Origin: Nocardioides sp. R-C-SC26
Lineage (GTDB): Bacteria; Actinomycetota; Actinomycetes; Propionibacteriales; Nocardioidaceae
DNA length: 64,000 nt
NCBI RefSeq assembly: GCF_021246465.1
Contig: NZ_JAHRHK010000006.1
Span: 66,649 to 130,648 of the forward strand
Direction: 5' to 3'
Shown here: positions 22,095 through 31,480 of the stretch, in pieces
How the letters are laid out: the number at the start of each line of letters is the position of its first letter
Numbering within the stretch: position 1 is the first letter of the stretch
Position numbers and translations under genes: made by a program
The notes under the pieces: generated by a model
Told to the model about the DNA's origin: nothing
What the model saw: only the letters and a program-made list of their open reading frames with translations
Databases searched by the model: none

Positions 22095-22232
22095 CCAGAG
22101 CCCCGTCGTAGCCCGCTCGGGCCATCCTCGGCGCCGACCGGTCGAACTTGCCCGGCAACGGCGAGTACGCCGCAGTGGCGCCCGTACGTTGGGACCTCGA
22201 GCTGTGAGGGCAGCTCTGAGGAGGGAGCACCG

Positions 22233-23372
22233 ATGCGTGCGCACAGAGTCCACTTCGCCCCGATGGCGGCCGTCTTGTCGGTGTCGTTCTTCGCGACCGG
22301 GGTCACCGTCGCACCCGCGCAGGCGGCCGCGCGCAAGACTGCGAGTGTCGACAACCTGGTCATGTGCATGGACCGGTCGGATGGGACGCTCCGTCTGGCC
22401 AGCAAGCGCAACGGCCCCGGACGGGGTACCTGCCCCAAGGGCGAGCGTGTCCTCACCTTCCAGCCCGAGCTCACCGTCGGTCCACCGGGAGCCGCCGGCG
22501 CCACGGGCGCTCCGGGCGCGACCGGAGCTGCTGGCGCACCAGGAGCGACTGGTGCTCCCGGTGCCACCGGCGCAGCCGGCGGGATCGGGCCGACCGGCGC
22601 CACGGGCGCTACCGGTTCGATCGGGGCCACGGGTGCGACCGGAGCTCCTGGCGCGACCGGAGCTGCTGGTGTCACCGGTGCGACCGGCTCGATCGGTCTG
22701 ACGGGAGACATCGGTCCGACGGGACCGCAGGGGCCGACCGGTGCCACAGGTGCCACCGGTCCCCAGGGCGACCTCGGGCCGACCGGTGCCACGGGTGCCA
22801 CGGGTGCTCCGGGCACCTTCGCCGAGCTGGTCACCTATGACGTCGTGGCCGCACCGACCTACGTCGTCGGTCAGCTCGTGACCTACGGCGGCGGTACCTA
22901 CCTGGTGAACACGGCTCCGCCTACCGGCGCCCCGATCTCCTCCCCGGACTACACGACCATCGCAGCCCCTGGCGCGACCGGTAGCGCTGGGCCGACCGGC
23001 GTCGCGGGACCGACCGGCGCGGCCGGCGACCCCGGGCCGACCGGTTCGGCGGGCGGCGGATCCGCACCGAGCTACGTCGTGCGCTCCAACGCGATCGCCA
23101 AGGGTGGCAGCGCCTGGACGATCGCCTACGCCGACTGCGGCGCGGGCGGCACCGCGCTCGGCGGTGGATTCAGGACCACGGCCAACGACGGCAGCACCAG
23201 CTATCTCTTCTTCGGCGACTCCTACCCGGCGGCCTCGGCAGCGGGAGCGGCTGTCGCCGATGGCGCCGGCGCGGCGCGGTACTGGGCGGTCGAGACCTTC
23301 TTGGACTCCTCGTCACCGACCGCGAGCGAGAGCCTCGATGTCTTCGCCACCTGCGTGAGCGTCGTCCCGTAG
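22233..23372 (+). CDS. Secreted collagen-like protein 1
   Basis: The 379-aa protein has a signal peptide (cleavage probably after APAQAAA, ~33), a two-Cys N-terminal module ([16 protein letters not shown] then GTCPKGERV) and about 37 Gly-X-Y triplets (residues ~83-194), many GAT. A spacer with [16 protein letters not shown] resembles short carbohydrate-binding modules. A second block of ~9 triplets follows, then a ~100-residue C-terminal domain with two Cys (ADCGAGG, FATCVSV). No LPXTG or C-terminal membrane anchor is visible. GGAGG lies 10 nt before the ATG. It is probably a trimeric surface or extracellular filament; its role is unknown. Confidence 0.8.
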
Positions 23373-23472
23373 CGATCGCGAGCGCGCGCCGGCGCCGTCG
23401 CTGGACGGCGTCGTATGCTCGCCGCCGGCGAGCCTCGACGATGGGCTGCGCCCACGCGAGAGGGGACGGTCG

Positions 23473-24051
23473 ATGAGGCATCGCGGACCGGCGAGGTCGG
23501 CGGCGTACGTCGTCGCGGCGTTGGTCGCCGTGGCCGTACTGGGTGGCTGCTCCAACGGCGACGCCCCGGGGGAGCCGGGCACGCCCGAGGACAGCGCCAC
23601 GCAGACGACCAGCCCGGAGGACGCGCTCATCGCGACGGGGCTCGAGCAGATCGAGGGCGGCAAGTTCGCCGAGGCCGAGGTGACCTTCCTGAGCCTGATC
23701 ACGCTGGATCCCGACAACGTCTACGGGCTCTACAACCTCGGCTACCTGGCACAGACCCAGGGCAACACCAGGTCGGCGATCGTGCGCTACACCGAGACGC
23801 TGAGCGTGGACGGCGACTTCGCGCCGGCGCTCTACAACCTCGCCCTGCTGACCGAGGCCGACGACGTCCGCGCGGCGGTGCTCCTCTACCGCCGAGCCGT
23901 TGCGGCCGCGCCGGACGACGCGGCGGCGCACATGCGCCTCGGTTTCGCTCTCCAGCACCTGGGCAAGCAGCGCGAAGGACAGCAGATGGTGGACCGGGGG
24001 ATCGAGCTCGACCCCGCGATGGCGGACGTCGAGCCCCCGCGTTACCGCTGA
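23473..24051 (+). CDS. TPR lipoprotein A
   Basis: The 192-aa predicted lipoprotein has the lipobox LGGC (Cys about 26), an acidic Ser/Thr linker and three to four tetratricopeptide repeats (FAEAEVTFLSLITLDPDNVY, YGLYNLGYLAQTQGN, PALYNLALLTEADD, AHMRLGFALQHLGK). A Shine-Dalgarno-like GAGAGGGG precedes the ATG. It is clearly paralogous to the lipoprotein at 25167-25736, sharing the TPR spacing and the EPP-Y ending. TPRs mediate protein contacts, so it may anchor or assemble envelope partners; the collagen-like neighbours are candidates. Confidence 0.8.
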   Translation: MRHRGPARSAAYVVAALVAVAVLGGCSNGDAPGEPGTPEDSATQTTSPEDALIATGLEQIEGGKFAEAEVTFLSLITLDPDNVYGLYNLGYLAQTQGNTRSAIVRYTETLSVDGDFAPALYNLALLTEADDVRAAVLLYRRAVAAAPDDAAAHMRLGFALQHLGKQREGQQMVDRGIELDPAMADVEPPRYR

Positions 24052-29816: not shown

Positions 29817-30030
29817 ACGTGTGGGCGATCGTTGTTGAGCGACCGCTCGGTTTGGAGCGACTTTCCGGCTTGTTGGTGGGGGGTCGTGGAGCGGAATCGA
29901 TTCCGGGTCTGCGGGGCGGGCGATCCGGTTCGCTGTGCTCTCGCGGTCGGCTGATACTGAGCTGATCGTGGGCCCCAGCGCCTGATCGTTCCGTGGCTGG
30001 TCGTTGAGTGAATTCTTGAGAGGTCTCCCC

Positions 30031-31467
30031 GTGTCTGACATGTCTCGTGGTCGCCGTTCGTTGTTGTCGCTGGCGGTGATGGCGACGTCGGCATCGGCGT
30101 TGTTGGTGATGGTGCCGGGGGCTGATGCTGCGCCGAAGAAGCGGACGTTGGTCGGCTGTGTGGATCGTGGCGGTGAGGTGCGGATCGTCCGGGTCCCGGG
30201 TGGTTGCGAGGCCGATGAGCGGGTGGTGCGCTGGGAGGCGCGGGGCAAGAAGGGCAAGCCCGGTCCGGCGGGTGCGGATGGTTCCTCGATCCTGACCGGT
30301 GATGGTGTTCCTGCTGCGGGTCTTGGTGAGGCTGGCGACTTCTACATCGATACCGACACCGGTGTGCTGTACGGCCCGAAGACGGCGTCGAACTCCTGGC
30401 CGACGGTGTATCAGCTGGGTGCGGGTGCGGCGGGGCCCCAGGGTGCGACCGGCGCTACGGGTCCGGCTGGCGCGACGGGAGCTGCGGGCGTCAATGGTCC
30501 TGCGGGTGTCACGGGCGCGACCGGCGCCACGGGTTCGGTCGGGCCGCAGGGCGCGACCGGCGCGACGGGGGCCACGGGTGCTGGAGCCACCGGAGCGACC
30601 GGAGCCACGGGTGCGACCGGCGCCACCGGCCCGACGGGGGCTACGGGTCCGACCGGGATCGGCATGACGGGCGCCACCGGGCCGACAGGCGCGACGGGTG
30701 CGACAGGCGCCACCGGTGCGACCGGGAACACCGGGTTGATCGGGGTCACCGGTGCGACCGGGCCGGCGGGTGCGACCGGGCCGACCGGTGCCACGGGCCC
30801 GACCGGCGGGGGCGGTCCCACGGGCGCGACGGGCCCCGCTGGGACGTCGATCATCAGCGGCGCTGTCGCTCCTACGAGTGCCGACGGGAACAACGGCGAC
30901 TTCTACGTCGACACCACCAACAACCTGCTCTACGGCCCGAAGGCGGCGGGCACATGGCCGACGCCCGGCATCTCGCTCGGCGGAGCCAGCGGTGGCACGA
31001 CGCTGCTCGTCGACGCTTGGGTCGGCTCGCCGCAGACGACGTTCCCGCTGTCAAACGGCTCCAACCAGCCGACGACCAAGGTCGTGTTCGGCACCGAGGT
31101 CGCTGACACCGGCGATGCCTGGGACGGCGACGAGTTCACCGCCCCGAGTGCGGGTCTGTACCTCGTGGAAGCGCAGACCGTCTCGCCGGACCATGCCACC
31201 CCGTCCAGTACGGTCGGCTTGTACCTCCAGGTCAACGTCGTCGGCGACAGCTCCTACGACCGATCGATCTTCAGCCACTACCCGCCGACTACTGCCGGCA
31301 GCAACCTTCCATCCGGGCTCAGGGGCATCAGCGCCGTCAACGGCACGATCCCGCTAGCGGCCGATGAGAAGATCTACGTCGGTGCGCTCGGCGCCAACAG
31401 CTCGACTCCTACGACGGGCACGCGCGCGACCCCGGCCAGCCGGATCCGGATCTACAAGGTCGGCTGA
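30031..31467 (+). CDS. Collagen-like protein 4
   Basis: The 478-aa secreted protein has a signal peptide, a two-Cys module ([25 protein letters not shown]), a [16 protein letters not shown] module, about 46 Gly-X-Y triplets (~133-272) with short breaks, and a second copy of the module ([16 protein letters not shown]). A ~150-residue C1q-like head follows ([16 protein letters not shown], ending RIRIYKVG). GTG 30031 is preferred for a GAGAGGT site 7 nt upstream; ATG 30040 is also possible. The collagen DNA is strongly biased to Gly, Ala and Thr codons, so its paralogue relationship should be judged on the end domains. Confidence 0.8.
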
Positions 31468-31480
31468 ACCGCGCGCCTGA

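Follow-up and report, generated by a model that had tools for sequence, protein, structure and literature searches.

A candidate collagen-glycosylation cassette, formed by Gly-X-Y proteins, a GT2-TPR glycosyltransferase and a TPR lipoprotein, between mazG and eno of Nocardioides sp. R-C-SC26

In PMC7157674, C. difficile SgtA is described as a protein of 358 aa made of a GT-A domain (residues 1-260) and of four tetratricopeptide repeats (TPRs; residues 262-358), encoded directly upstream of bclA3. With UDP-GlcNAc as donor and in presence of Mn2+, it adds beta-O-linked N-acetylglucosamine (GlcNAc) onto threonine (Thr) residues of BclA3 collagen-repeat peptides (PMC7157674). The present analysis concerns a 64,000-nucleotide stretch of Nocardioides sp. 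R-C-SC26 (contig NZ_JAHRHK010000006.1, positions 66,649 to 130,648; hereafter the window), in which a 9.4-kb stretch between mazG (end at 22094) and eno (start at 31579) carries eight genes in the order ColA (+), TprB (+), GT2 (-), TprD (-), ColE (+), ColF (+), a tandem TetR-type regulator (+) and ColH (+). The initial annotation of this island as four secreted Gly-X-Y proteins, two TPR lipoproteins, a family 2 glycosyltransferase (GT2) and a tandem TetR was confirmed by Pfam and NCBIfam models and by the lipobox of both lipoproteins. Comparison with related loci reduces the island to a core cassette made of a collagen-like protein, a GT2-TPR glycosyltransferase and a TPR lipoprotein, the TetR standing outside the conserved unit. 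We consider it probable that, in this cassette, GT2 glycosylates the Gly-X-Thr collagen and the TPR lipoprotein assists the exported collagen.

The island GT2 (24070-25155, minus strand, 361 aa) resembles SgtA, as far as the available description goes, in its size of about 360 aa, its N-terminal GT-A and C-terminal TPR parts, the adjoining collagen-like gene and the Thr-rich collagen region. The sugar published for SgtA is beta-O-GlcNAc, whereas the activity of the window GT2 is a prediction from sequence. The two systems also differ in that the SgtA-BclA3 setting is the spore exosporium, that a single collagen is involved there and several here, and that the available part of PMC7157674 names no TPR lipoprotein.

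A Pfam GT2 domain was found at residues 7-99 of the enzyme, followed by C-terminal TPR matches, and the same two-part GT-A/TPR layout was obtained in a structure model with a predicted local distance difference test score (pLDDT) of 96.5. In its own genome, GT2 is the sole match at E <= 0.001. A profile built from 21 GT2 sequences retrieved from the PDB the peptide S-glycosyltransferase SunS (4e-16) and GmaR (1e-14). Superposition of the model on SunS (Z 23.5, root mean square deviation 2.4, 264 residues aligned) indicates the same two-domain fold, and the alignment with ThuS (Z 22.5) covers residues 1-361; the rows below these glycocin enzymes (7msp, 7msn, 7msk; Z 22.5-23.5) are a TPR protein (Z 18.0) and a fucosyltransferase (Z 17.0). 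SunS and ThuS share with GT2 the GT-A and helical-repeat fold but modify a Cys of small bacteriocin precursors, and GT2 scored far under the cut-off of the SunS model TIGR04195 (33.7 bits versus 350). GmaR (22ao), the Listeria flagellin GlcNAc transferase and anti-repressor, has a related GT2 domain and a protein substrate; it differs in that this substrate is flagellin, and the matched PDB chain spans query residues 4-190 only. D92-A-D94, D35-T-G-S38 and H142 are invariant in 38 GT2 sequences from several phyla, and the D92-A-D94 motif fits a metal-dependent GT-A enzyme. Because of the SunS-like fold, the SgtA-like layout and setting, the adjacency of collagens and the Thr contrast described below, the most likely role of GT2, as predicted here, is that of a collagen O-glycosyltransferase of the SgtA type.

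The composition of the collagens was compared in genomes carrying GT2. In 20 GT2-linked loci the median share of Thr at the Y position was 0.51; for the unlinked collagens of these genomes, measured over 42 stretches, it was 0.12 (Mann-Whitney p 6e-8; this test, like those on the lipoprotein and GT2, ignores kinship). The unlinked set started from 43 stretches, 40 among the matches listed and three from the window's genome, from which L193 was dropped as it has no measurable run; one or more of the listed places (in G200 and in G084) are not part of it. Within the window's genome, the values are 0.52, 0.62, 0.52 and 0.76 for ColA, ColE, ColF and ColH, versus 0.17, 0.00 and 0.08 for the other three collagens. 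Together with the fold and the SgtA precedent, this within-genome contrast supports the earlier proposal that GT2 would be the enzyme acting on the Thr-rich stems.

The linkage of the three gene families was measured in a sample of 294 genomes of the Nocardioidaceae, in which the surroundings of all GT2 and lipoprotein matches were examined. GT2 was found at E <= 1e-40 in 20 genomes, the TPR lipoprotein at E <= 1e-20 in 24 and a Pfam collagen at E <= 1e-5 in 171. GT2 and lipoprotein occur together in 17 genomes (Fisher p 2e-19, kinship ignored), and all 20 GT2 genomes contain a collagen. With the window excluded, 28 of the 29 lipoprotein loci have a Gly-X-Y run of at least 8 triplets at a distance of 2 kb or less (26 of them within 1 kb), a count which leaves out a 565-aa TPR match in L076, on account of its size, and a 42-residue TPR fragment in L077. 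Such a run was also present at 20 of the 21 GT2 loci, within 2 kb in 19. A random gene is expected within 2 kb of a collagen in at most about 1.2% of cases, an upper bound in which every Pfam collagen stretch is taken as a gene. The co-occurrence of the three families, set beforehand as a test, is therefore borne out by 28/29 and 19/21 loci. Relative to the nearest collagen, the lipoprotein is located on the 5' side at 26 of 28 loci (17 codirectional, 9 divergent), and GT2 on the 3' side at 10 loci and on the 5' side at 10. A varied gene order with a constant content is the trace that a functional unit would leave. Across the compared contexts, the most widely recurring ORF families were the lipoprotein (23 loci) and GT2 (19 loci); the clustering ran with low-complexity masking, so that collagen ORFs formed no cluster. 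A small number of further families, all common ones and among them an ABC ATPase and a LysR-type regulator, recurred at 3-10 loci; considered as partners, they were read as ordinary neighbours.

TprB (23473-24051, plus strand, 192 aa) lies 100 bp 3' of ColA and TprD (25167-25736, minus strand, 189 aa) is divergent from ColE. The two proteins are 51% identical and both possess a lipobox, whose Cys24 is invariant in 29 aligned sequences; the start sites of the relatives were picked with a lipobox rule, and one of them (L072) is without lipobox. The pairing of TprB with TprD in the TPR tree is weak (81/73). Asn85 and Asn119 are invariant in the same 29 sequences; in OGT, such Asn residues in TPR helices bind the peptide backbone. 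The structure model contains four TPRs and is close to PilF (TMq 0.66), but the fold matches to PilF, MamA and OGT were dismissed as clues to function, being common TPR matches. Lipoproteins of the PilF/PilW, Tgl and GltE types share with TprB and TprD the lipobox, the TPRs and a PilF-like fold; the PilW, Tgl and GltE NCBIfam cut-offs were nevertheless missed by far (57-61 bits versus 225 for GltE) and the island is without pilus or gliding genes. No match to the TPR lipoprotein was found on plasmids.

An alternative accepts GT2 as the collagen glycosyltransferase and assigns the lipoprotein to the enzyme, to glycan metabolism or to shared regulation, with no contact to collagen. In agreement with it, TprD ends up 11 bp 5' of the GT2 start, the two probably forming an operon, and 15-90 bp separate the two genes in several relatives. 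In 7 genomes without GT2 at E <= 1e-40 (L086, L087, L090-L094), however, the lipoprotein still adjoins a collagen; the Thr content of these collagens is below that of the GT2-linked collagens (p 2e-4), several being Thr-poor (0.02-0.12). Moreover, in the loci labelled siteA the lipoprotein faces the collagen with GT2 more than 1 kb off, and the lipoprotein is expected outside the membrane, GT2 inside. GT2 associates with Thr-rich collagen and the lipoprotein with collagen as such, and we regard the alternative as unlikely. Its presence next to collagen genes even where the genome has no close GT2 suggests that the TPR lipoprotein works with the collagen itself, a contact which is predicted.

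A second alternative would have GT2 make a surface polysaccharide or wall glycan, the collagens being mere neighbours. Generic GT2 domains are frequent among the enzymes that make wall glycans, and TarS, a wall teichoic acid enzyme, has the GT-A part in common with GT2 (Z 15.0). The peptide-acting SunS and ThuS, however, align over both domains and with clearly higher scores than TarS, no other glycan genes recurred beside the module in the contexts compared, and the Thr contrast also speaks for a protein target; this explanation appears very improbable.

The chromosomal site was then considered. In addition to the window, five other genomes (L070, L071, L082, L086, L090) carry the module in their mazG-eno interval; it is on the opposite side of eno in L089, and L069, which starts at a contig end, shows collagen, lipoprotein, GT2 and eno one after another. 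It occupies other genomic places in L062-L068, L078-L081 and others. A survey of 40 of the 59 congener genomes, 12 of them without eno within the 13.5 kb taken, left 28 measurable mazG-eno intervals, none of which contained a collagen run or a match to the lipoprotein or GT2. This distribution supports the initial reading of the island as accessory. In the GT2 tree, the window groups with the siteA loci (100/98) and L082, although also at mazG-eno, falls in another clade (100/100), so that two GT2 lineages are present at this site (window and L069-L071 versus L082). These may result from separate insertions or from replacement; a single site origin is compatible with the tree label count. The least credible explanation, an accessory hotspot where unrelated surface-protein genes collect at mazG-eno and other tolerant sites and are linked by shared mobility, could invoke these two lineages and the mazG-eno interval sizes of 0.2 to 9.6 kb, but the same gene kinds keep to distances of 2 kb or less at several sites and in several orders, and the Pfam scan detected no integrase or transposase among the eight island proteins.

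Beyond the family, a GT2 profile scan of genome contigs gave at least 533 confirmed relatives, of which the best 80 were examined; these belong to Pseudomonadota, Actinomycetota, Chlamydiota, Myxococcota, Acidobacteriota, Planctomycetes and a Candidatus Eremiobacterota metagenome-assembled genome. A Gly-X-Y run of at least 8 triplets was present in the available DNA of 38 of these 80 loci, and Thr occupies at least half of the Y positions of the nearest run in 31 of these 38. Full 8-kb flanks were available for 38 of the best 80; among these, a run was found in 21, within 2 kb in 14. The genomes behind them carry a Pfam collagen in 34 of 36 cases, and chance would link at most 1.5 of 36 at 8 kb or 0.45 of 36 at 2 kb. 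The lipoprotein is rarer than GT2, with matches at E <= 1e-25 in 12 of 396 genomes of the phylum, the window's own included.

Several relatives stand in particular surroundings. On a plasmid of Mesorhizobium sp. WSM1497 (L319:2855-5653), a 933-aa protein combines SgtA-like GT2, Anp1 and GT25 domains, and about 2.4 kb away lies a Gly-X-Y run in which 96% of the Y positions are Thr; the animal collagen galactosyltransferases are GT25 enzymes. The Tunturiibacter jumbo phage Tunturi_5 carries a GT2 relative of 39% identity (L318:6001-7104) at a distance of about 5 kb from a gene for a tail fibre that contains Thr-rich Gly-X-Y runs. On a Citrobacter conjugative plasmid, with IS26 and ars genes near, a GT2-TPR gene (L320:4995-6191, 30% identical) follows an autotransporter gene by about 100 bp, and its product may modify this adjoining surface protein. 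In the laboratory strain Cupriavidus metallidurans CH34 (L316), Thr-rich Gly-X-Y runs stop about 550 bp 5' of the GT2 relative, in a region where the gene table of the record is empty. In Streptomyces albiflavescens (L148:6308-7998), the genes divergent from the GT2 relative encode two TPR proteins, each beginning with a hydrophobic stretch; one of these proteins is 35% identical to TprD, and the nearest Gly-X-Y runs are Thr-poor.

The following observations weigh against the proposed cassette. According to PMC8968730, no residue occupies the Y position of bacterial collagens in general more often than Thr (48.3% in Gram-positives, 31.6% over all bacteria), so that Thr richness alone proves nothing. 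Six unlinked collagens of GT2-positive genomes are Thr-rich too (0.89, 0.62, 0.51, 0.50, 0.45 and 0.45), the one at 0.62 being at a contig end; they could be targets in trans. In the family, no collagen run accompanies the GT2 locus L073 nor the TPR locus L088. No run was detected at 42 of the 80 best GT2 loci, including 4/4 in Acinetobacter and 4/4 in Holophagaceae, many contigs being short, and a run was found at 4 of 13 lipoprotein loci from 11 non-window genomes outside the family, where several contigs are short. Finally, the likeness between GT2 and SgtA is one of published layout and gene setting.

In the mechanism that we propose for the cassette, GT2 would act in the cytoplasm, where it is placed because it has no signal peptide, on the unfolded Gly-X-Thr chain before export. 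Its TPR domain would hold this unfolded chain, as in other TPR-bearing glycosyltransferases, and a sugar would be added to Thr at Y, GlcNAc being the most likely one by analogy with SgtA; the modified position is deduced from the fold, the adjacency, the Thr contrast and the SgtA precedent. The collagen would then be exported by its N-terminal signal and would trimerise via its C-terminal domain, which is of the BclB type in ColE. On the outer face of the membrane, the lipoprotein would bind the chain as it emerges, or the head with its Cys residues, and promote folding or attachment of the collagen. The surface filament proposed initially would be a hypothetical product of this pathway.

The four collagen-like proteins of the island are all encoded on the plus strand: ColA (22233-23372, 379 aa, 46 Gly-X-Y triplets), ColE (25947-27287, 446 aa), ColF (27420-28559, 379 aa, with a start at 27411 or 27420) and ColH (30031-31467, 478 aa, with a start at 30004 or 30031). 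All four passed the gathering score of the Pfam Collagen family PF01391 (58.5-84.9 bits, cut-off 27.2) and the cut-off of no other Pfam family. Each contains 46-52 triplets and an N-terminal hydrophobic, signal-like stretch. Since the rest of the 64-kb window is devoid of Gly-X-Y runs of at least 8 triplets and all four proteins passed the Pfam score, a chance or frame artefact was ruled out. LPXTG was absent from the four sequences, which stayed at 48-80 bits with the SclA and SclB models of LPXTG-anchored adhesins (cut-offs 325 and 400). Over the aligned parts of their heads, ColE, ColF and ColH share 61-63% identity, the head of ColA is only weakly similar, and every head contains two Cys.

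ColE alone passed the BclB-related exosporium model TIGR03721 (114.7 bits, cut-off 93.15, residues 276-445). The island collagens thus share with the Bacillus BclA and BclB exosporium proteins a collagen stem with Thr at Y and, for ColE, the BclB-type end; they differ by their heads, which are a distinct two-Cys segment, and no exosporium is expected. The organism is not known as an endospore former. The BclB-type C-terminal domain (ColE end, window 27114-27284) recurs at seven family loci and one Parachlamydiaceae locus (L070, L077-L079, L083, L085, L202, L144).

The tandem TetR-type regulator (28656-29816, plus strand, 386 aa), inside the island, gave two TetR_N matches in one ORF with Pfam. 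It had initially been listed among the genes that fill the island. Its membership of the system is not supported: it was matched in the window only and at no other module locus scanned, and it was ruled out as regulator of the module. The G+C content of the island does not depart from its surroundings, so that a recent foreign origin, judged by composition, was rejected, and a promoter and terminator scan yielded no signal exceeding that of shuffled sequences. Ahead of mazG, a secreted protein (20947-21690) has a lipobox-like start; no family was above threshold, SurA_N_3 giving a sub-threshold match only.

The absence of any known description of such a combined system in actinobacteria, put forward initially, holds for one side of it. 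The enzyme side is less new than claimed because the SgtA-BclA3 pair is published (PMC7157674, in the part available). On the lipoprotein side, no description of the lipoprotein or of the three-part collagen/GT2/lipoprotein unit was found in open-access full text, and the words sgtA, glycosyltransferase, TPR and lipoprotein are all absent from the main text of PMC13188886, a 2026 BclA paper.

A broader possibility, which we put forward tentatively and with some doubt, is a dedicated bacterial machine for collagen assembly. In this machine, a cytoplasmic SgtA-type GT2-TPR enzyme, distributed from Actinomycetota to Pseudomonadota, Chlamydiota and Acidobacteriota, would cover Gly-X-Thr chains with sugar and would be combined in Nocardioidaceae and some other Actinomycetota with the lipoprotein as a collagen-specific export chaperone and anchor. 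The TPR-type peptide-binding domain of animal prolyl 4-hydroxylase offers a functional comparison for a chaperone lipoprotein of this kind. Glycosylation, export and anchoring of bacterial collagens are known for few species, and the cassette is a small conserved gene set which carries the SgtA precedent into a second phylum and further, and which brings in a lipoprotein as a candidate for collagen handling. Two questions become testable with it, namely which enzymes modify Gly-X-Thr collagens and how collagens without LPXTG are retained by the cell, and enzymes decorating recombinant collagen are of interest for biomaterials. The lipoprotein, if its predicted role is true, would be the first bacterial collagen partner of its kind.

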